From NCBI GenBank assembly GCA_027064085.1, contig JAMOQH010000179.1, positions 1-64,000 on the forward strand: a DNA stretch of 64,000 bases. The letters are read 5' to 3'. This document shows positions 21,974-36,656 of the stretch, in pieces (positions within the stretch are counted from its first letter, which is position 1; every line of letters begins with the position of its first letter). Below the pieces are notes generated by a model. That model saw only the letters and a list, made by a program, of their open reading frames with translations, did not search any database and had not been told where the DNA came from. This DNA comes from a bacterium (GTDB lineage Bacteria; UBP6; JAFGXH01). The translations under genes were made by a program, and so were the position numbers.

Positions 21974-22002
21974 TTGACAGAAATTTCATTAGGTGTTAAA
22001 TT
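21974..22002 (+). promoter_or_regulatory. Sigma70-type promoter for the PqqD-like gene
   Basis: TTGACA - 17 bp - TAAATT. Confidence 0.6.
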
Positions 22003-22028
22003 GTTGTATATATTTTAAGGTGCTATTT

Positions 22029-22289
22029 ATGATAAAATTAAACGATAAAGTTACATATAGAAAAATAGAAGATAGTATTTTAATTATTACTCCATGGGAT
22101 AATGCAATGCATACCCTTGAGGATATAGGAAAACTAATTTTTGAGGCGTTAATTGATGCCAAAGAAAAAGGTGATATTTTACAAGAAATATTAGATAATT
22201 ATGATGTAGAATTAGTAGAAGCTAAAAATGATTTAGAGCAATTTATTGATTCTTTAATTGAAAAAGAAATTTTTATAGAGGAGGAATAA
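22029..22289 (+). CDS. PqqD-like / RiPP recognition element (RRE) protein
   Basis: MIKLNDKVTYRKIEDSILIITPWDNAMHTLEDIGKLIFEAL..., PqqD-like pattern of early beta strands followed by G-x-LIFEAL and a C-terminal helix. Confidence 0.7.
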   Translation: MIKLNDKVTYRKIEDSILIITPWDNAMHTLEDIGKLIFEALIDAKEKGDILQEILDNYDVELVEAKNDLEQFIDSLIEKEIFIEEE

Positions 22290-25200
22290 TGAATAAGTTG
22301 TTTATTTATTTTACAACACTTATTGCATTTACATTTGTCATTACTAGTTGTAGTAGTGGAAGTAGTAATAGTTGTAAAACTAGCGAAGATTGTGATAATG
22401 GTGAAGTTTGTGTTAATGAAGTTTGTAAAACGGATGAAACTAAAAGTAGTTTAAGTCTTATTGCTATTAATGATGGTGATTTTATTGATGGATATCGTTA
22501 TGATGAAAATGGTACTCTTGATGGAGTACAATTAACTATAAACGCAAAAGCTACTAATTTTAAAGATGGTACAGACATAAGTCTAGAAATTGCTACTAAT
22601 CCTAATAGTAAAGTTACAGAGAAGTTAAAAGTTTTAGATGATGGGACTAGCATAGTTAGTTTTAGTGATTTCACTTTAAAAAATGGACAAAATATGCTTT
22701 TGTTATCAGGTAAAGATAAATATGGCGAGTCTATTAATACAACAGTAACTATAACAGCTCAAGAACTTACTCTTGTAATAACTTCTCCAATAGAAGGAGA
22801 AACTCTTAAAGCTGCTGATGATCAAAATACTGAAGAATATTATATCCAAAAAGATGTTAAAGTAGATGTTAAGGGTTTAGTATCTGAAGATAATTTATTT
22901 GCGAAATTAGTTTTATTTGACGGAGAGCAAGCAAAATTTTCTTATGTGGCAGAGCCTAAAGATGGTGTCGCAGTATTCGAAAATGTTGATTTTAGAGCTG
23001 GAAATTGGAAACTAGTTGCTTCTATTGATACAAGAGCCAATTCTACAGTTAGCTCTACACCTGTTAATGTTATAGCAGAATCAACAGGCGATTGTGTAGT
23101 TAAAGTCTTTCCTGAAAATGGAACAGTGATAAATCAAAAATATTTAAAGGAACATAATATTGGTATTGATAATAAAATTCCCTTGAAAGTTGAATCAAAT
23201 TGCCCAGCTAATTTTAAAGTTAAATTTACTGTAAATAGTACTGAAATATACAATGGTATTCTTGTTCTTGATGGAGATAAAACTGTTGCAGAAACTTCAT
23301 TTGCTTTTCCTGAAGATATTGGTGGAGTAGGCTCTGAAGTAAGAGTAGACGTATCTGAAAATTTTGATGATACAAATGCTGATGGTGGTTTTATTGTTGC
23401 TACATATAATGTTGACACAATAGCACCTAACTTTGTTGAGGTAACAGAGCCTCTAGAAGATTCAATACTAAATACAGACACTGATTTAGATGGAGATGCA
23501 ACAAATGGTATTCAATTTTGGGTAAAAGGTAAAGTTGAAGGTTCTACTTCTAGTTTAAAAGTTTATATAGATGATTTAGAAAACCCTATTGGAGGAGTTC
23601 AAACTTATGATAATGCAATAGCACAAGATGGTACTTTTGATACTTCATTATTAGATAATAATCAATATACTAGTATTTCTGTTGGTGGAGAAAGAACAAT
23701 TATATTTGAAGCGGTTGATGAACATGGAAATAAATCTACTTTTAACAGAAAAGTAAATGTAATGTTGTCTAACCCTAATGAATTGTCATTAAGTTTTAGT
23801 GATAATAAATTGTTAAATCCAGATAATAAAATTAATATTAACACAGCTACAATTGGTGTTTTATTAAATAGGTTCTTAGAGGGTGTTTTGATTCTAAATG
23901 TAACCCTTAACGGAAATAGTTATGATTATACAAATAGCGTTAATATTGATGACCCTACAAATTTATTGGGATATTTTTCTTTTACTGATTTGAGTGACGG
24001 TAGGTATATAATAACTCCTAAATTCAAGGATACCAATAACTTTAACTACACCGGTGTTAATGGATATTTAAATGTTAAAACAGCTATACCGGTTTTTAGT
24101 AATCTAAATATTGTTCAAGATACTGACAATAATAATATTTTAAACATGGCAAAAGATGCAAATGCAACTTTAGAAGGGTTTCAAACTGATATTACTATAG
24201 ATACTGAAAATCTTTATTTAGATGATTTAGATTGCGAAAATGAATCAGATAGGGTGAAAGCAACTTTATATAAAATAAGTGATAATGGTGATGTTTTAAG
24301 TGAATCAGCTAAAGTTGCTTGTGATGGTAAAGTGAAATTTACTAATGTTACATTACCTGAGGGTAATTATAAATTATTTATAAAAGTAACTGATGGTTTT
24401 GGTAATATTGGAACTTTTGAAACTAGTGCTTTAACAGTAGATATAACACCTCCGGATTTAAATACTTTATTTTTAACTGCAACAACAAATTCTAATGAAA
24501 AGCCTGTTACAACAGACAGCTTGTTTTTATCTATAGATGATAAGGATAGTAATACCACAGGATTACAAAGTAATTTTAAGGCTTATTCTTTAGATTCTGT
24601 TTCAATTGAACTTAAATTTGATTCAATCGACCAAACTGAAGATGTTGTTAATGGAGTAGTTGATTTTGGCGACTTAACATTACAGAATGGTGCAACTAGC
24701 ATTGAATTAATCGCAACAGATAATGTAGGTAATATAACAAACAAAGAAATAACCAATGTAGTTGTAGATACACTAGTGCCTTCTTTGGAACTTTCTATGT
24801 CAAAAACAACTATAGATGATTCAGATGATGAAGATGATACAAGAGCAGGAATTCAATTTACGGTAACTATTAATAATATGCAAAATATTGAAGATGGACA
24901 AGTTATTTATATTCAAAAAAGTGTAGATGATGGTAATGGTAATATTACATGGAATAATGTAGCTCAAGTTCTTAAAGATGCGAATGATAGCAAAAATATT
25001 GTGATTACTCTTCCTCTTGGAACATATAAACTAAGAGCAATGGCTAGTGATGTTAATAACCAGGAAGGTTATTCTGCTGAAATTGATATGGATGTAACAT
25101 CTTCTAATTGTGCTATTGTTTCTGTGAAAAAAGGAAATTCTGAATTAGTTGCAGGTACAAACTTTTTTAATGCTAGCGATGTTGATGTAAATGGTAATGT

Positions 25201-27427
25201 TTCATTAATAATAACTTATACTGCATCATGTAATGTTTTAGGTGGAACAACTATTATAGCTAAGAAAAATGGTGCAAATGCAGCAAGTACTAATATAGAT
25301 ACAAGTTTAAGTTCAACTTTGGATATTCCTTTTACTGATGGCGAAAATATTTCATTATTATTTGAAATTAATTCCACTCCTGTTGGTTCATCTTCTTTTA
25401 CTATTAAGGTTGATACTAGTGCTCCTGCAATATCAAGAGTATTTCCAACATTATCAAGTATTACTTATGTTAATGCTAATAATACATTAATTGGAACAAC
25501 TGGTAATGAGGATAAAATTGGCGATTTAAATGATGCTTTACAAAATGCACAATTATCATTAACTGTAAAGGTTGAAGGGGCAAAAAATGGTTCAATTGAG
25601 ATGATTGCAAATGATGGAAGTAATGATGTGTCTATAGTAACCAAAAATAATATTGCCTCTAATGATGAAAATATTGTTTTAAGTGGAACAATTGCTGATA
25701 ATAAAACTCACGATTTAAAATTTAAGGTTACAGATGAAGCTGGTAATACAGTAACCACTTTATTATATAATGCAGTTGTTGATGTTACCAATCCTGGTAA
25801 TTTAGCAACTTTAGATTATGATGGAATGAGCAATACCGAAAGAAGAAAAGCTGAACTTAATTTAACATGGAATCAATCATCTACTGATGATGTGAGTAAA
25901 TATGTTATTAAATATTCAACAAGTTTGTTTGATGATACTAGTTTTGAAAATCTTGATGGAACAAATAATCAGGAAATTGTAATTAATTCACCTGATTTAA
26001 CAACTGCAAATTATCAAAAACTAATAACCTCATTAATTTTTCAAAAGAACTATACTTTTGGGGTAAGAGCTTATGATGAAGTTGGAAATGCAAGTAATAT
26101 TTTGATTCGTTCTACTGGAACTGATTTGAATTTATTATCAAAAACTTTAGATACATCAAGTTTTGATACTAATGATAGTATTTATAAGATAAAAGATGTT
26201 GGTGATATTAATGATGATGGATATAATGATGTTGTTGTTACTCAATATGTTGCATCGGGTTGGGACGGTGTAATTTATATTTTTTATGGAACTGGAGATC
26301 CCGATACTATTGTATCTCCACAGATTATCGAAGGAGTTGATGGAAGTTATGAAGGGCTTGGTTCAAGTATTACTTCTGGAGATTTTAATGGAGATGGTAA
26401 AACCGATTTGCTTGTAGGTTCAATATGGGCGGATTATTATTATGATTCAGGAAAATATTGTTATGGAGGTGGAGTATATGTTTTCTATAATCAGGGAAAT
26501 GGTACTCAGATTGATGCTTCAGATAAAACGTTAATAACAAACTCCAATCTTCATCCTGTTGCTAAATTAAGAGAGGAGGGGTCATATTACTATGGAAAAC
26601 TTGGAAAGTCACTTTCAGCATTAGGCAAATTAAATGGAAGTGTTTATGATAGTTTTGTTTTAGGACAAAGTTTTTCATCAGATGGTGGACGAGCTTTTAT
26701 AATAGAAGGTAGAGCTGGAAAGCCTTCATCAATAGATTTAGCTTCAGCATCTAATGTTGTGGAATTATCACATGATTTTGGAGTTAATAGTTATTTTGGA
26801 AACTCTGTTACAACTTTAGGTGATTTGAATAATGACAATATTGTTGATGTTGCTGTAAGTGACCCTGTAAATAAAAAAGTTGCTATTTATTATCTTGATA
26901 ACAACATTTATAGTAACACTACACTTATTGCAAAAGCTGATAATACGGGAGATGCAACAATTTTAGAAGCTACTGGAGAAAACTATGGTAGTGAAATTAT
27001 TGGCGACATTGATTTAAATAATGATGGTTATAAGGATTTGGTCGTTTCTGGATTAACTACAGGTTTGTTCTTATATTATGGTACAAATACCGGATTAGCT
27101 TCTGATTCAACATTTTCAAAGATAAATATACCCTCAGGAGGGATTGAAAATCATCCTAGTTGGAATAATAATTTCTCTGTTGCAGATTTAGATAATGATA
27201 ATAAGGACGATATAATTGTTGGAGAAAATAAGAAATTAAATATTTACCTAAGTAGAGTTAATAACTTTACGAATACATCAACACCTGATACCATCTTGGG
27301 TGAGAGTGATTTTGCTGTGGCTATTACAGGTACATTAAAAGCTTCTTCTTTTGATGTAAATGATGATGGGCTTAAAGATTTGGTTATTTGTGATATGGGT
27401 AGTAAGAATTGTTTTATTAAATATTAG
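22289..27427 (+). CDS. Giant lipoprotein with bacterial Ig-like repeats and C-terminal FG-GAP (integrin-alpha-like) propeller
   Basis: Lipobox (FVITSCSSG); repeated Ig-like modules; DINDDGYNDVVV, DFNGDGKTDLLV, DLNNDNIVDVAV, DLNNDGYKDLVV. Confidence 0.85.
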   Translation: MNKLFIYFTTLIAFTFVITSCSSGSSNSCKTSEDCDNGEVCVNEVCKTDETKSSLSLIAINDGDFIDGYRYDENGTLDGVQLTINAKATNFKDGTDISLEIATNPNSKVTEKLKVLDDGTSIVSFSDFTLKNGQNMLLLSGKDKYGESINTTVTITAQELTLVITSPIEGETLKAADDQNTEEYYIQKDVKVDVKGLVSEDNLFAKLVLFDGEQAKFSYVAEPKDGVAVFENVDFRAGNWKLVASIDTRANSTVSSTPVNVIAESTGDCVVKVFPENGTVINQKYLKEHNIGIDNKIPLKVESNCPANFKVKFTVNSTEIYNGILVLDGDKTVAETSFAFPEDIGGVGSEVRVDVSENFDDTNADGGFIVATYNVDTIAPNFVEVTEPLEDSILNTDTDLDGDATNGIQFWVKGKVEGSTSSLKVYIDDLENPIGGVQTYDNAIAQDGTFDTSLLDNNQYTSISVGGERTIIFEAVDEHGNKSTFNRKVNVMLSNPNELSLSFSDNKLLNPDNKININTATIGVLLNRFLEGVLILNVTLNGNSYDYTNSVNIDDPTNLLGYFSFTDLSDGRYIITPKFKDTNNFNYTGVNGYLNVKTAIPVFSNLNIVQDTDNNNILNMAKDANATLEGFQTDITIDTENLYLDDLDCENESDRVKATLYKISDNGDVLSESAKVACDGKVKFTNVTLPEGNYKLFIKVTDGFGNIGTFETSALTVDITPPDLNTLFLTATTNSNEKPVTTDSLFLSIDDKDSNTTGLQSNFKAYSLDSVSIELKFDSIDQTEDVVNGVVDFGDLTLQNGATSIELIATDNVGNITNKEITNVVVDTLVPSLELSMSKTTIDDSDDEDDTRAGIQFTVTINNMQNIEDGQVIYIQKSVDDGNGNITWNNVAQVLKDANDSKNIVITLPLGTYKLRAMASDVNNQEGYSAEIDMDVTSSNCAIVSVKKGNSELVAGTNFFNASDVDVNGNVSLIITYTASCNVLGGTTIIAKKNGANAASTNIDTSLSSTLDIPFTDGENISLLFEINSTPVGSSSFTIKVDTSAPAISRVFPTLSSITYVNANNTLIGTTGNEDKIGDLNDALQNAQLSLTVKVEGAKNGSIEMIANDGSNDVSIVTKNNIASNDENIVLSGTIADNKTHDLKFKVTDEAGNTVTTLLYNAVVDVTNPGNLATLDYDGMSNTERRKAELNLTWNQSSTDDVSKYVIKYSTSLFDDTSFENLDGTNNQEIVINSPDLTTANYQKLITSLIFQKNYTFGVRAYDEVGNASNILIRSTGTDLNLLSKTLDTSSFDTNDSIYKIKDVGDINDDGYNDVVVTQYVASGWDGVIYIFYGTGDPDTIVSPQIIEGVDGSYEGLGSSITSGDFNGDGKTDLLVGSIWADYYYDSGKYCYGGGVYVFYNQGNGTQIDASDKTLITNSNLHPVAKLREEGSYYYGKLGKSLSALGKLNGSVYDSFVLGQSFSSDGGRAFIIEGRAGKPSSIDLASASNVVELSHDFGVNSYFGNSVTTLGDLNNDNIVDVAVSDPVNKKVAIYYLDNNIYSNTTLIAKADNTGDATILEATGENYGSEIIGDIDLNNDGYKDLVVSGLTTGLFLYYGTNTGLASDSTFSKINIPSGGIENHPSWNNNFSVADLDNDNKDDIIVGENKKLNIYLSRVNNFTNTSTPDTILGESDFAVAITGTLKASSFDVNDDGLKDLVICDMGSKNCFIKY

Positions 27428-27440
27428 TAAGGAGATGAAA

Positions 27441-27560
27441 ATGAAAAAAAAGTATATAAAACCAGTTTTAGAAACAGAAGAGATACTTGAAAGAGTTGTT
27501 TTGGGTTGTTCATTACAAGAAGGAGCTTGTGACCCTAAAGCTGGTACTTCAACAAGTTAA
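27441..27560 (+). CDS. Putative RiPP precursor peptide (39 aa)
   Basis: SD AAGGAG at 27429-27434; MKKKYIKPVLETEEILERVVLGCSLQEGACDPKAGTSTS; leader-like KKYxKPxLE start and short Cys/Gly/Ser/Thr-rich tail. Confidence 0.65.
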   Translation: MKKKYIKPVLETEEILERVVLGCSLQEGACDPKAGTSTS

Positions 27561-27569
27561 AAGATGAAT

Positions 27570-28538
27570 TTAAATAAACCTCGCTAATTCTATTAAAAAA
27601 CTCCCTTTATCATTAATTGTTATTTTATTTAAAGAGTTATACAAAGAATGTTTTTTATTATAATGATAAACTGTAACAACATCTATAAAATATTCTGAAT
27701 TCATATCAAGTTTTTTATTAAATACAGAAAGTTTATCAAATGAGGTTAATATTTTAATCGTGTTTTTTAAAGTTTTTATTAACTTCATAAATGTATATGT
27801 ATCAAGCATTTTGTTTGAAATATCTTCAAATAGTAATGTCAAATATATTAATGCAATCTTTTCTATGGGCTTTAACAATACATAAGGATTTTTATTAATA
27901 AGAAAAGTATTTTCAAATCCTTTAATTAGATAATGATATCTAGGGAATTTATAGTTTTTTTGATAATAATTATTCCACATATTCCAATAGTAAAATATTT
28001 CATTTTGAGTTAATTTATAATTTTCTTTAAAAAATTCTATTAAATTTATATGATTATAATAATATCCTTCATAATCGGATAAATCATCTCTTGGAGTATA
28101 ATTATAAAAATCAAAACTAATATTTTTAGTTTGTTCAAAAAAATTATTTGTAGTAATGGGAGTTTCTCCGCTATCAGTAATAGAACAATCATAAAAATTT
28201 ATAGAAATAATATAAATATCATTTATTCTACCTAGAATTCTGTATGGGAATATATTACAAATATCAGGTTTCGCATATTTGCCATTCTCAATCTCTATAT
28301 GGCACTTTCCATCATTTCTTAATTGAGGGCATACTCCAAAATTTAGAATACTATGTTTTTCTTTAAAGCAACTACTATATTCTGATTTATATTTCTTATG
28401 AAGAAGGATTTTATCGTTTCTTGTACAACAATTTATTAAACAATTTTTACATGAATAATAGAAAAAAGAATCAGGAAATAAAAATTTAAATTTTCTACCA
28501 TTATTCTCTATTATTTTAAGCTCTTCAAGTTTTTTCAT
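27570..28538 (-). CDS. YkgJ-like Cys-cluster protein (putative Fe-S or Zn)
   Basis: CKNCLINCC ... CPQLRNDGKCHIE ... KPDICNIFPYR. Confidence 0.7.
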   Translation of the reverse strand: MKKLEELKIIENNGRKFKFLFPDSFFYYSCKNCLINCCTRNDKILLHKKYKSEYSSCFKEKHSILNFGVCPQLRNDGKCHIEIENGKYAKPDICNIFPYRILGRINDIYIISINFYDCSITDSGETPITTNNFFEQTKNISFDFYNYTPRDDLSDYEGYYYNHINLIEFFKENYKLTQNEIFYYWNMWNNYYQKNYKFPRYHYLIKGFENTFLINKNPYVLLKPIEKIALIYLTLLFEDISNKMLDTYTFMKLIKTLKNTIKILTSFDKLSVFNKKLDMNSEYFIDVVTVYHYNKKHSLYNSLNKITINDKGSFLIELARFI

Positions 28539-29335
28539 AATATTATATCCTTAAGTGGTTCGTTTAGATTAAAGCTTAATTCATCTACCGTAACATTATT
28601 ATAGATTTGATTGAGTATATTTAATATCAAATTATAAGTATATTTATCTGTATTATTATATCCAAAGATTAATTTTAGGATTTCTTGATAAAATTTTTTT
28701 TTATCAATATTTTTTAAATAATAATTTGATTTTCTTTTTAAGATAAAAATTTTTTTTAATTCTTTTTTAGGTAAAAAGTTTACAATATGTTTGGGATTAT
28801 AATTAAAAGGAGTAGGATAAATATAAAATTTTTCATTTAATTTTCTTATAAGGGTAATTTCATCATGAAGGATGGTACAGCCTTCAGATTTTAGTTTTTT
28901 AGCAAATGTTGATTTACCACTACCACTAATTCCACTTCCTACAATTCCATAATTATCATTTATAATAGAAGATGAATGTAGTAGTAATGCATTAAATTTA
29001 GGTAAAAAATTCAATAATATTGTTTTTATAATTAAAAAAAAATTATTTGAATCTTTATGTATTAAAAAATTTGCAGTATTTTCAATATAATTAATTTCAC
29101 CATGAATATCCCATTTTTTAATTATCATAATGTCATCATTTATATTGGTAATGAAATAATCCCATTTGCCATTAATAAGCTCGTAATCATCTATTTTTAT
29201 AAGTTTAACAAAAATATCATATTCTGAATTTTCTATAATAAAATCTTTTAATATTTGTTTCATTTTGTTATTAAATAATTGATAGTCAATTTCAAATGAT
29301 ATAATTATATTAGCAATAGATACCTGAAAACTCAT
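28535..29335 (-). CDS. HprK-like (HPr kinase-related) P-loop kinase
   Basis: NALLLHSSSI...GIVGSGISGSGKSTFAKKLKSEGCTILHDEITLI. Confidence 0.8.
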   Translation of the reverse strand: MSFQVSIANIIISFEIDYQLFNNKMKQILKDFIIENSEYDIFVKLIKIDDYELINGKWDYFITNINDDIMIIKKWDIHGEINYIENTANFLIHKDSNNFFLIIKTILLNFLPKFNALLLHSSSIINDNYGIVGSGISGSGKSTFAKKLKSEGCTILHDEITLIRKLNEKFYIYPTPFNYNPKHIVNFLPKKELKKIFILKRKSNYYLKNIDKKKFYQEILKLIFGYNNTDKYTYNLILNILNQIYNNVTVDELSFNLNEPLKDIIL

Positions 29336-29763
29336 AATTTTTTTTTCCTTTTGATTATCATTTTTATAATAGGGTGAAATGGCAGTATGTAATAATAGTA
29401 TATGTTTAATATGTGTGAATTAATTATTAAATTAAATTTATTTTTCTGTATTTTAAATAAAACACCAAAATAGTTATTTTCATTTATTTCATAAAAATCA
29501 TTATTTACATTATTGTCACCTTTTGTTATTATTTTATTATTTTTAATTTTGATAATTCTGTGTAGTATAAAATCATTCTTTTTAAAAAGAATAATATCCC
29601 CTTGTTTTAATTTATTAATATTTTTATATTTTATAAATACTTTATCACCCTTAGATATTAGTGGCCACATTGAACCACCGGTAGTTACATCAGTAATAAA
29701 TATATCTCCTTTTTTAAGAGATATTTTTAGTAATTCCTGTTTTATCTTATTTTTTTTAATGAT
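29332..29763 (-). CDS. S26-type (SipW/Sec11-like) peptidase; start extended upstream of the tracked ATG
   Basis: Frame continues upstream: KGDIFITDVTTGGSMWPLISKGDKV...GDIILFKKNDFILHRI...ITKGDNN; candidate ATC/ATT start at 29758-29763 after SD AAGAGG. Confidence 0.75.
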   Translation of the reverse strand: MIKKNKIKQELLKISLKKGDIFITDVTTGGSMWPLISKGDKVFIKYKNINKLKQGDIILFKKNDFILHRIIKIKNNKIITKGDNNVNNDFYEINENNYFGVLFKIQKNKFNLIINSHILNIYYYYILPFHPIIKMIIKRKKKL

Positions 29764-30725
29764 TTTGTTACCTCTTTAATGCCATTATTCTTAATTTTTA
29801 TAAATTTATCATTTAAAAACCTTTTGTAGTCATTTAAGTTGTCAAATGTATAGTAAAATAAAAAAATCTGATTAATTCTAAAATTATTAGTCATTATCAT
29901 ATTTTTTAAAATTAATTTTTCGTAAGTTTTCAAATTGATTAAATTTATGGGTACTTTCTTTAAATCAAGTTCATTTATTAATATATAAAATATTAAATAA
30001 CTAATTTTTTTTATTCTGAAAAGGTTTATCATTTTTAGGAGATAATTCCAATTAATATCCTCTTTTTTAATAATTAAATATAAATCTAGAAATTTTTTTT
30101 CTACATTGATAAAATAGTCATTGGATATCTGTATTATTAAAGCAATAAGCTGATGCTCGATACAGTTTTTTTCAAAAATAACAGAGTAATCAATATTAAA
30201 TTTTGCTTTTTGAATAAAGGCTATATGTAAGTCTAAACTAAGTTCATGTCCTTTATATTCTATCAAAAACTCATTTTCATAAAAACGATACTTATTTTTA
30301 TAAAAGGATTTATCTTTTTTATATTTTGTTATTTTAAAATTATTATCTATTAAATCTTTTACTCTGCTTAGTTGTTTTTCATCTATTAATAAATCAATAT
30401 CAGATAGAAATCTTTGTGCAATATTTTCATATATGTTTTCGGCAGTAAATGCTCCTTTATAGAAAAGATAATTAAGTCTATTTTTATTTAAAAGTGTTTT
30501 TAGCTCCTTTTTAAAGTTTAAAAGTATGATGTTTTTATATAAATTTGCTCTATATTCTTGATTTATTTTTTTATTTTCTAATATTTTTTTATTTATGGGT
30601 AAAAAATAAAACGAAACGCTTAATTTTTTGAATTGATAATATAAATCAGTTGTATAACCAATCTCCTTTTTTAAAACTTTTTTAAAATTACTATTTAAAA
30701 TACCATTTTTTAAGTAAAATATAAT
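29742..30725 (-). CDS. NTP_transf_5-like nucleotidyltransferase; start extended upstream of the tracked TTG
   Basis: Frame open to stop at 30735-30737; encodes YKGAFTAENIYENIAQRFLSDIDLLIDEKQ...LIEYKGHELSLDLH; only ATA/ATT start candidates after SD AAGAGGAG. Confidence 0.75.
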   Translation of the reverse strand: MIFYLKNGILNSNFKKVLKKEIGYTTDLYYQFKKLSVSFYFLPINKKILENKKINQEYRANLYKNIILLNFKKELKTLLNKNRLNYLFYKGAFTAENIYENIAQRFLSDIDLLIDEKQLSRVKDLIDNNFKITKYKKDKSFYKNKYRFYENEFLIEYKGHELSLDLHIAFIQKAKFNIDYSVIFEKNCIEHQLIALIIQISNDYFINVEKKFLDLYLIIKKEDINWNYLLKMINLFRIKKISYLIFYILINELDLKKVPINLINLKTYEKLILKNMIMTNNFRINQIFLFYYTFDNLNDYKRFLNDKFIKIKNNGIKEVTKSLKKIR

Positions 30726-30748
30726 TATCTCCTCTTAAAAACATATAA

Positions 30749-32101
30749 CTACTTGTTTTGAGCTCTAAATAATTTTTCTAATCTATCATACACCTCAATA
30801 GCTTTTGCCCTAACTTTATAATTGAGCTTTTTATTTGTAGTTAATGAGTATAAAAACTTTCTGTTTTCTATGCTTAAATCTTCTATTTTATTTAATGTAT
30901 CAAGTATTTTAACCTGTAATAAATCAGGACGAGCTAAAATATAGTCATCTGCACCTTTATTGGTTTGGCTAATTGTTGGACACATTATTTTGCTTTCATT
31001 GAAGAAATCTTCTTTAAGCATTTTTTGCCCAGTTAAAAGTTTTAATTTTGCAATACCGACAACAGCTAAACATTTATGCTCTAGTTTACCTTTTTTATAG
31101 AAATTTTGAAATAATTCTTCAACTTTTTTTCTTGCTTCTTTTGATGCAGGAGTAGTATTTGCCAGAATCCAAATCATTGTGGTGTAATCCTTGATATTAT
31201 CTTTTTTATTTATCATAGCATTAAAGCTTTCACGGCCATCAAATGCTGCAACTGTTAATAGACATTCTCTTGGGTAGTTTACTCTTTTACATTCTTTTTC
31301 TATTTCTTTTGCATATTTAAAGTTTACAGAAAATAAATTTCTTTCAACTTTTATTTGTTCTGTTAATAATTTTAAATCATCACCTTCAGTAAATCTTTTT
31401 TTGGCTTCCTCTTCGGCATCTTTTATAGATAAGTCATAAATAGCAGAAACAGCATCTGCTACAACTTCAGGAGATTCAGAATTTAAATATTTTTCTATAA
31501 ATGGAATATCTTTAATACTTCCTCTTTTTTTGATATACCATATACCCCATGATTTAACTTTATCATATTTTGTTGTTTCAACAGTTTTTTTTATTCTGTT
31601 TAACATTTCATTTCTGTATGTAGGGTCCTGAAGATGATATAAGGATTCTATTGCTTCAATTTGTTTTTTTTCATTATTATATTTTAATTGTGAAAATTTT
31701 AATCCTACTTTGTTGTAGAAATCAAATATATTATTACTAACTTTATTAAATGCAAAAATATTTGCTCCAATTATCAAAACAAGTATAATTCGGAATCTTA
31801 ATTTATAATCTTTAAAATCTTTTCTAGCAATTTGTTCTTCTTTAGTTAATCTTTGAATTAATATTTCTTCCTTTTTCCAATAAATGTCAAAAAATAAATC
31901 TCCAGTTAAAACAGCTTCAAAACCGCCTAATATAACTATAAGCAAAAACCAAAAGAGCATCATAAAGAAATAAATAGTGATACTTTGCTCTGATGATCTA
32001 ATCATATTCGCCATAAAAACAGTATAAATACCTAAAATAATATTTAATATGATTATTGAGATTATGTTTTTAATTTTTGTTCCTAATAATTTATTTAGCA
32101 T
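30749..32101 (-). CDS. Membrane protein with HEAT-like repeats
   Basis: N-terminal TM helices; helical repeats such as DIPFIEKYLNSESPEVVADAVSAIYDL. Confidence 0.65.
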   Translation of the reverse strand: MLNKLLGTKIKNIISIIILNIILGIYTVFMANMIRSSEQSITIYFFMMLFWFLLIVILGGFEAVLTGDLFFDIYWKKEEILIQRLTKEEQIARKDFKDYKLRFRIILVLIIGANIFAFNKVSNNIFDFYNKVGLKFSQLKYNNEKKQIEAIESLYHLQDPTYRNEMLNRIKKTVETTKYDKVKSWGIWYIKKRGSIKDIPFIEKYLNSESPEVVADAVSAIYDLSIKDAEEEAKKRFTEGDDLKLLTEQIKVERNLFSVNFKYAKEIEKECKRVNYPRECLLTVAAFDGRESFNAMINKKDNIKDYTTMIWILANTTPASKEARKKVEELFQNFYKKGKLEHKCLAVVGIAKLKLLTGQKMLKEDFFNESKIMCPTISQTNKGADDYILARPDLLQVKILDTLNKIEDLSIENRKFLYSLTTNKKLNYKVRAKAIEVYDRLEKLFRAQNK

Positions 32102-32168: not shown

Positions 32169-34013
32169 TTACAAGAAAAAATCAAAGACTTTTTTTGCAA
32201 TCTCTTTATTTATACCCTTAACCTTTTTAAGGTCTTGTAAGCTTGCTTTTTTGATATTTTCTATACTTTTAAAATGTTTAAGTAAAATTTGTTTTCTTTT
32301 ACTCCCTATACCGTCTATTTTATTTAAAACTGATTGAATACCTGTTTTGGCTCTTAGTTTTCTGTGGTATTCAATTGCAAATCTGTGAGCTTCATCTCTT
32401 AATTTTACAAAAACAACTATTTCAGGGCTATTTTGTTTTAGAATGATTGCTTCTTTATTTTTAACTTTAAAAACTCTTTCATAGTATTGGGCTTTGTCTT
32501 TATCATTTGATTTAATTTTAGCTAAAGATAGTAAGTCAACTGTGTTTTCAACATTTAATTCTTCTAAAGCTTCATAAGCTGAATTTAGTTGTCCTTTTCC
32601 TCCATCTACTATAATTAAATCAGGAAGTAAATTTTCTTTAAGGCCAGATTTAATTCTTCTTGATATAACCTCTTTCATCGATGCATAATCATTTATGCCT
32701 TCAACTGTTTGTATTTTAAAATGTCTATAACCTTTTTTGTATGGCATTGCATTTCTAAATTCTACTTTTGAAGCAACAGGATTAGCTCCTTGAAAATTTG
32801 AATTATCAAAGCACTCTATTTTATTTGGTATATTTATTAAATTAAATGTGTTTTTAATTGTTTCAAGGAGGTTTTTATTTTTATTTTTTAGATAATATTC
32901 CTTTTCTAAACTTATTTGAGCATTTTTATTTGCCATTATCAATAAATCATTTAATTTTTGCATTTTTTTGTTGCTTTTAGGGTAGAAAAAATTAATTTCT
33001 TTATTACTTTCATTATTAAAGTATGTATTAAATAATTCAAAATTAAAACTTTCTTCAGGTAATAAGACTTCTTGAGGGAAGGCTGTTCTTTTGGAGTAGT
33101 ATTGCAATATTATAGATTCTATCATTTCAATGCTAGGAAACTTGATATTATTAAAAATTTCTACTTTTTTATCTATTATTAAGCCATTTCGTAATATCAA
33201 AATTGAAATGCTCAAACTATCATTTAAAACAGAATATCCTATTATATCTATATCTTTCTTATAATCAACTGAAGCTAAATGTACTCTTAAATAATATTTT
33301 AGCATCTTAATTTGGTCTCTTAGCTTTGCTGCTTTTTCAAATAATAAATTTTCACTAGCATTATACATTTCTATTTCTAATTCTTTGATTAGCTCATCAC
33401 CTTGTCCAGATAAAAATTTTTTAAGTTTACTTATTTCACTATTATAGCTATTTTCGGTAATTTCATTTATACAAGGTCCACTACATCTATGGATTTCATA
33501 CTCTAAACAAGCTCTTTTACTTGATTTTAAAACAGAATCAGTACAAGTTCTTAATTTGAATAACCTATTTAGTGTAGAAACTAAATTTCTTACTCTACTC
33601 GACTGAAAAAACGGACCTATATAAAAAGCTTTATCTTGTTTATTGTATGTTCTAACTAATTCCAGCATAGGAAAGTATGATTTTGTATCAAGTCTAATTA
33701 AAAGTTCTTGCTTGCCATCTTTATATACTATATTAAATTTAGGTTTATGAAGTCTAATTAAAGTTGCTTCAAGTTTTAATGCTTCTTCTTCTGTGTTAGT
33801 AATAGTAACTTCAATATCCGATAATATATCAGATAAAAACTTTATGAAACTTCTGTTGTCTCCTGATTTTTGAAAGTAATTTTTAACTCTTTTTTTTAAG
33901 TTTTTGGCCTTACCTATATAAACAATTTTATTATCTATATCTTTCATGATATAACAGCCTGGTAATTCTGGAATTGTTTTTATAATTTTTTCATGATTAA
34001 AGAGAGTTGTCAT
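32169..34013 (-). CDS. uvrC: Excinuclease ABC subunit C
   Basis: GIY-YIG-like GCYIMKDIDNKIVYIGKAKNLKKRVKNYF, UVR motif, C-terminal nuclease ECFDNSNFQGANPVAS and HhH. Confidence 0.97.
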   Translation of the reverse strand: MTTLFNHEKIIKTIPELPGCYIMKDIDNKIVYIGKAKNLKKRVKNYFQKSGDNRSFIKFLSDILSDIEVTITNTEEEALKLEATLIRLHKPKFNIVYKDGKQELLIRLDTKSYFPMLELVRTYNKQDKAFYIGPFFQSSRVRNLVSTLNRLFKLRTCTDSVLKSSKRACLEYEIHRCSGPCINEITENSYNSEISKLKKFLSGQGDELIKELEIEMYNASENLLFEKAAKLRDQIKMLKYYLRVHLASVDYKKDIDIIGYSVLNDSLSISILILRNGLIIDKKVEIFNNIKFPSIEMIESIILQYYSKRTAFPQEVLLPEESFNFELFNTYFNNESNKEINFFYPKSNKKMQKLNDLLIMANKNAQISLEKEYYLKNKNKNLLETIKNTFNLINIPNKIECFDNSNFQGANPVASKVEFRNAMPYKKGYRHFKIQTVEGINDYASMKEVISRRIKSGLKENLLPDLIIVDGGKGQLNSAYEALEELNVENTVDLLSLAKIKSNDKDKAQYYERVFKVKNKEAIILKQNSPEIVVFVKLRDEAHRFAIEYHRKLRAKTGIQSVLNKIDGIGSKRKQILLKHFKSIENIKKASLQDLKKVKGINKEIAKKVFDFFL

Positions 34014-36574: not shown

Positions 36575-36656
36575 TGCGAGAGGCGGGACTTGAACCCGCA
36601 TGGCTCGCGCCACACGCCCCTTAAACGTGCGTGTCTACCGATTTCACCACTCTCGC
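36575..36656 (-). tRNA. tRNA-Leu, anticodon apparently AAG
   Basis: GCGAGAGTGGTGAAATCGGTAGACACG-CACGT-TTAAGGG-GCGTG...GGTTCAAGTCCCGCCTCTCGCA; class II with variable arm; CCA not encoded. Confidence 0.9.

Follow-up and report, generated by a model that had tools for sequence, protein, structure and literature searches.

A probable LPP-like peptide modification pathway with a giant FG-GAP lipoprotein as constant partner in an uncultured bacterial phylum and Myxococcota-type relatives

Two convergent groups of genes in a genome of an uncultured bacterial phylum raise the question of what is made from the 39-aa peptide encoded at the point where they meet, and by which enzymes. The window analysed here is the whole 64,000-nt stretch of contig JAMOQH010000179.1, and the gene order, the overlaps and the 39-aa peptide reported in its initial annotation agree with the ORF lists, translations and raw sequence. 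On the plus strand, a discrete 86-aa RRE protein of the PqqD family (22029–22289; PF05402, E = 1.6e-9), presumed to bind a leader, starts with the ATG at 22029, a longer GTG start at 21993 also being possible, and its stop codon, which ends at 22289, shares one nucleotide (TAATG) with the start of a gene for a giant lipoprotein of 1712 aa (22289–27427; FG-GAP_3, E = 2e-15, and a lipobox). Next comes the precursor peptide of 39 aa, MKKKYIKPVLETEEILERVVLGCSLQEGACDPKAGTSTS (27441–27560), with the ATG at 27441 correctly spaced from AAGGAG and a stop ending at 27560. The promoter placed ahead of this group fared less well: the string TTGACA-17-TAAATT, with a TG before the second hexamer, is indeed present (21974–22002, plus strand) and is the best-ranked promoter-like site in the region, but it is a weak candidate, as the 70 such sites counted there do not exceed the shuffle mean of 72.6.

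The opposing group ends only 9 nt away (3′ ends at 27560 and 27570) and consists of four minus-strand genes that overlap at 28535–28538, 29332–29335 and 29742–29763. From the 3′ end, they encode an accessory Cys-cluster protein of 322 aa, weakly FliB/YkgJ-like (27570–28538); an HprK-like kinase of 266 aa (28535–29335); a SipW-like, archaeal/ER-type member of the S26 signal peptidases that is the putative leader peptidase (29332 to about 29763–29775); and an NTP_transf_5 nucleotidyltransferase with the motif RFLSDIDLLI (29742 to about 30728–30734; PF14907, E = 2.8e-20). The last two genes have no ATG, GTG or TTG ahead of their conserved residues, and instead show in-frame ATA, ATT or ATC codons after a good Shine-Dalgarno sequence, so that both adjoining genes apparently use non-standard starts (ATA/ATT for the nucleotidyltransferase and ATC/ATT for the peptidase, the start of the latter being uncertain). 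The four genes may belong to a longer operon as its last members, since a further minus-strand gene ends at 30749, upstream of the nucleotidyltransferase gene, and the minus-strand genes beyond it are tightly spaced up to 36613, including uvrC (32169–34013). The sole match in an Rfam search was a tRNA at 36575–36656.

The co-occurrence of this gene set in relatives, which the initial annotation had proposed to check, was borne out both within the host's phylum and in Myxococcota-type genomes, and it supports the putative assignment of the locus to the RiPP-type peptide modification and processing systems. Both genomes from the same family (L041 and L042) carry RRE orthologues within a cassette of RRE, giant lipoprotein and peptide genes, and in both of them the NTP_transf_5 gene adjoins the S26 gene, away from the cassette. 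In other families of the phylum the order is RRE, giant lipoprotein, peptide and HprK, often followed by a SPASM radical SAM gene and S26. Phylogenetic profiles, which cover 28 genomes, include one genus of 15 genomes in which the peptide, HprK and NTP_transf_5 are present in the same five and missing from the same ten, and in which four of the five peptide-positive genomes, but none of the other ten, also have S26 and the cassette RRE; in the profiled genomes of this genus the cassette, NTP_transf_5 and S26 lie on separate contigs. On an rpoB tree, built without G004, each gene has to change four to five times, and wherever a branch is supported no other gene changes in the direction opposite to the peptide; the tree holds three supported independent pairs, and three to five independent changes are too few for the profile test to reach 0.05. 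The inheritance together of kinase, peptidase and NTP-transferase genes that are unlinked points to a candidate minimal set for the pathway.

Outside the phylum, a genome-wide scan with the alignment of the giant lipoprotein returned mostly generic FG-GAP matches, HprK and S26 matches being found in only three of the 54 loci (L183, L184 and L190), which contain the same cassette. When the 377 genomes of the phylum-level group that includes the Myxococcales genome G063 were searched with a peptide HMM, 23 were positive, and among the 20 loci fetched from these 23 genomes HprK lies nearby in 19, the twentieth being cut by a contig end; the same 20 loci include a radical SAM gene in 15 cases, and S26, RRE and the giant lipoprotein in 13 cases each. 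Because it recurs in this way across genomes, the gene set of the window is far beyond chance, and it is one system. Gene order varies among the Myxococcota-type loci, four of which (L259, L263, L269 and L272) have RRE, HprK and radical SAM genes before the giant lipoprotein and peptide genes. Elsewhere, in G024 (L077, 990–4044), the HprK-radical SAM pair is duplicated.

Most of the proteins could be placed in families. In Pfam, PqqD, the FG-GAP repeats and NTP_transf_5 of the window score above cut-offs, as does Peptidase_S24, if barely (E = 2.1e-5). The S26 protein exceeds the cut-off of TIGR02228, the archaeal signal peptidase family (E = 7e-20), its Ser31 and His68 are invariant in nine aligned sequences, and its best PDB matches are SEC11C and SEC11A. 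The HprK-like proteins fall under every NCBIfam cut-off: the kinase of the window resembles the HprK-related kinases A and B in its P-loop region, but reaches only 35 bits against HprK_rel_B (TIGR04355, E = 6.6e-9) and 28 bits against HprK-related kinase A (TIGR04352, E = 1.4e-6), where each cut-off is 200. Its structure model nevertheless suggests the fold shared by HPr kinase/phosphatase and PEPCK (Foldseek probability 1.00), and His120, the Walker A Gly, Lys and Thr, and Asp158 are invariant in 16 aligned sequences.

Such a composition had been called unfamiliar, which no longer holds, as it corresponds to the core of the linear polyphosphorylated peptides (LPP) described from the lpp cluster of P. 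alginolyticus (Popov et al. 2026, PMC13381572). That core comprises an RRE, an HprK-like kinase, an archaeal-type S26 peptidase, an NTP transferase, a YxxP precursor and an MsbA-like exporter; in the experiments reported, the HprK-like kinase phosphorylated a core serine, namely residue Ser3 in the case of LppK, and the SipW-like peptidase cleaved in an RRE-dependent manner, while LppN was inactive in the host used by the authors (PMC13381572). Judged by family matches and motifs, LPP is the closest known system to the window cassette, which has the discrete RRE, the kinase with its conserved catalytic residues, the archaeal-type peptidase and the NTP transferase, along with a precursor that belongs to a set of peptides with a YxxPx[LIV] leader, a later [FLI]E[TR] and a variable C-terminus. 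The cassette is thus the LPP core without the MsbA-like exporter, of which a Pfam scan of 10 neighbouring genes found no example, with a shifted leader motif, in another phylum, and with a giant lipoprotein added. The LPP precursor motif is YxxPxVLxHQxIxFETxxS (PMC13381572), whereas the leaders of the window family have neither the HQ motif nor the +3 Ser, and their LER, FER or FET stands closer to the Tyr, by two residues, than does the FET of LPP; the position in the window peptide that matches the LppK target Ser3 is not a Ser. Further differences are the constant presence of the giant FG-GAP lipoprotein, a radical SAM gene in most relatives of the cassette, the frequent C-terminal Ser, and the hosts, an uncultured phylum and Myxococcota-type relatives, as opposed to Bacillota, to which LPPs are restricted according to the authors, who describe the biological role of LPPs as unknown (PMC13381572).

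We therefore consider it probable that the locus encodes an LPP-like RiPP pathway making a phosphorylated short peptide. What the analysis shows directly is a set of genes inherited together, the families to which their products belong, a leader motif, and catalytic residues that are conserved. The window precursor is one of 44 distinct peptides with a [YF]xxP leader and, in most of them, a later [FLI]E[RT]; its putative recognition segment is YIKPVLETEEILER (27453–27494, plus strand), with a YxxP motif whose Tyr and Pro do not vary, either among 17 aligned peptides from the host's phylum or in a cross-phylum set of 15. By analogy with LPP and with paeninodin and pseudomycoidin, the 39-mer would be bound by the RRE at its YIKPVL leader and presented to the partner enzymes, the HprK-like kinase would phosphorylate a core serine, the SipW-like peptidase would then remove the leader, and the NTP_transf_5 protein would probably add a further group to the phosphate as a cap. 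Cleavage might be expected near ...LER or ...VLG. Our preference for the C-terminal Ser39 as the most likely phosphosite, and for a capping step, follows from the precedents of paeninodin, the HprK-like kinases of which act on the C-terminal Ser of lasso peptides, and of pseudomycoidin, in which hexoses are added via a nucleotidyltransferase (PMC8498205). Ser is the last residue in 20 of the 44 distinct peptides and makes up 6.7% of residues elsewhere in the cores (binomial 1e-12, a value that ignores relatedness); more than half of the peptides, including all of those from genus g3, lack a terminal Ser though the kinase is present. If true, the pathway would extend phosphopeptide RiPPs beyond Bacillota.

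The same precedents bring up a lasso peptide cluster with added phosphorylation and capping genes, as an RRE, an HprK-like kinase and a nucleotidyltransferase recur in paeninodin and pseudomycoidin clusters (PMC8498205), and the window RRE is of the lasso type, with the lasso-peptide RREs TbiB1 and TfuB1 as its best PDB matches. Unlike those clusters, however, the locus contains neither a macrolactam cyclase nor a B2 leader peptidase among its genes and has an S26 peptidase in place of B2, as in LPP, so that a lasso origin, which we regard as highly improbable, is largely ruled out by the gene content of the locus. Relatives of the cassette also show weak similarity to the SynChlorMet systems (NCBIfam ScmC-ScmF), their HprK-like proteins matching ScmC, PqqD matching ScmD, and the radical SAM proteins matching ScmE or ScmF, but all of these matches are far under the curated cut-offs, and the window has no linked radical SAM gene.

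The role of radical SAM chemistry merits separate consideration. The initial annotation had seen no radical SAM enzyme, and none is linked to the cassette in the window; this is, however, not a property of the system, as most cassette-bearing relatives have a SPASM gene beside HprK and the host genome contains an unlinked candidate on contig C100. It may then be asked whether a SPASM enzyme encoded elsewhere in the genome acts in trans to install a thioether or another kind of crosslink on core cysteines as the main modification, phosphorylation being secondary. Every predicted core among the 44 distinct peptides does contain at least one Cys, and the C100 protein scores 265 bits against an HMM made from Myxococcota-type cassette enzymes only, above the 198–209 bits of the phylum's own cassette enzymes. 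On the other hand, SPASM proteins from other families that are likewise unlinked reach equal or higher scores, for which reason we list it only as a candidate orthologue of the cassette enzymes, and there was no strong SPASM match for the genus g3 cassettes or in the two same-family genomes. Taken together, a crosslinking enzyme acting in trans as the main modifier seems rather unlikely to us. On G011:C94 and G026:C5 (L282 and L283), radical SAM proteins with lengths near 500 aa share their open frame with a weak match to PqqD (L018 and L022), and are possibly RRE-radical SAM fusions of another system.

The product of the gene at 27570–28538, fourth in the overlapping operon, could in principle take the place that a radical SAM enzyme has in other lineages and tailor the core, methylation of the only lysine there being one option, in view of the weak match of its Cys-rich part to the flagellin lysine-N-methylase FliB (NF038110, E = 0.13). 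Yet the protein has no Pfam family match even at an E-value of 10, no homologue was found in the 60 other genomes searched, and its AlphaFold model is unusable (pLDDT 35), which makes such a substitution quite improbable. The earlier proposal of a YkgJ-like tailoring or redox partner is not upheld, in that a gene absent from 60 other genomes is not conserved and for this reason not core; as a core partner, it is ruled out.

The giant lipoprotein, in contrast, is a constant partner of the cassette. It consists of a lipobox Cys, an N-terminal motif with four Cys, an Ig-like region and C-terminal FG-GAP propeller repeats, and ten orthologues from three families of the host's phylum share invariant columns over the full length. 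In that phylum its gene sits between those of the RRE and the precursor, with the ORFs overlapping or almost so, and it recurs in Myxococcota-type cassettes. Such an arrangement, together with the lack of an exporter among the neighbouring genes scanned, could mean that the peptide is not a secreted product but serves the giant lipoprotein as a signal or tag, and that the enzymes attach or regulate this protein at the cell surface. This reading relies on co-location; nothing resembling a peptide motif was noted in the giant lipoprotein, there is no known mechanism of attachment, and we think it unlikely. Returning to the LPP-like pathway, the giant lipoprotein would perhaps serve as a surface acceptor or binding protein for its product. 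As a tentative and low-confidence extension, a phosphopeptide RiPP pathway present in at least two phyla might have a giant FG-GAP lipoprotein dedicated to its product, which would be mounted on this protein or bound by it and would act at the cell surface, not as a free secreted compound. Were the pathway confirmed, phosphopeptide RiPPs would gain in this lipoprotein a constant genetic partner, which may reveal the function of such peptides.

The cassettes of family f3 (L059 and L079) contain two precursor peptides each. In the host genome itself, a second PqqD gene on contig C10 (L046, 9833–12505) is followed by a gene the product of which starts with MNLNIAITGINATDNPGPGSSVVRGIR and by a gene for a PLP-decarboxylase-like enzyme, with the N-terminus MKERYESPIITKN of that enzyme resembling a YxxP leader fused to the protein. 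Products similar to those of this second PqqD locus are encoded in G001 (L045, 6829–9258).
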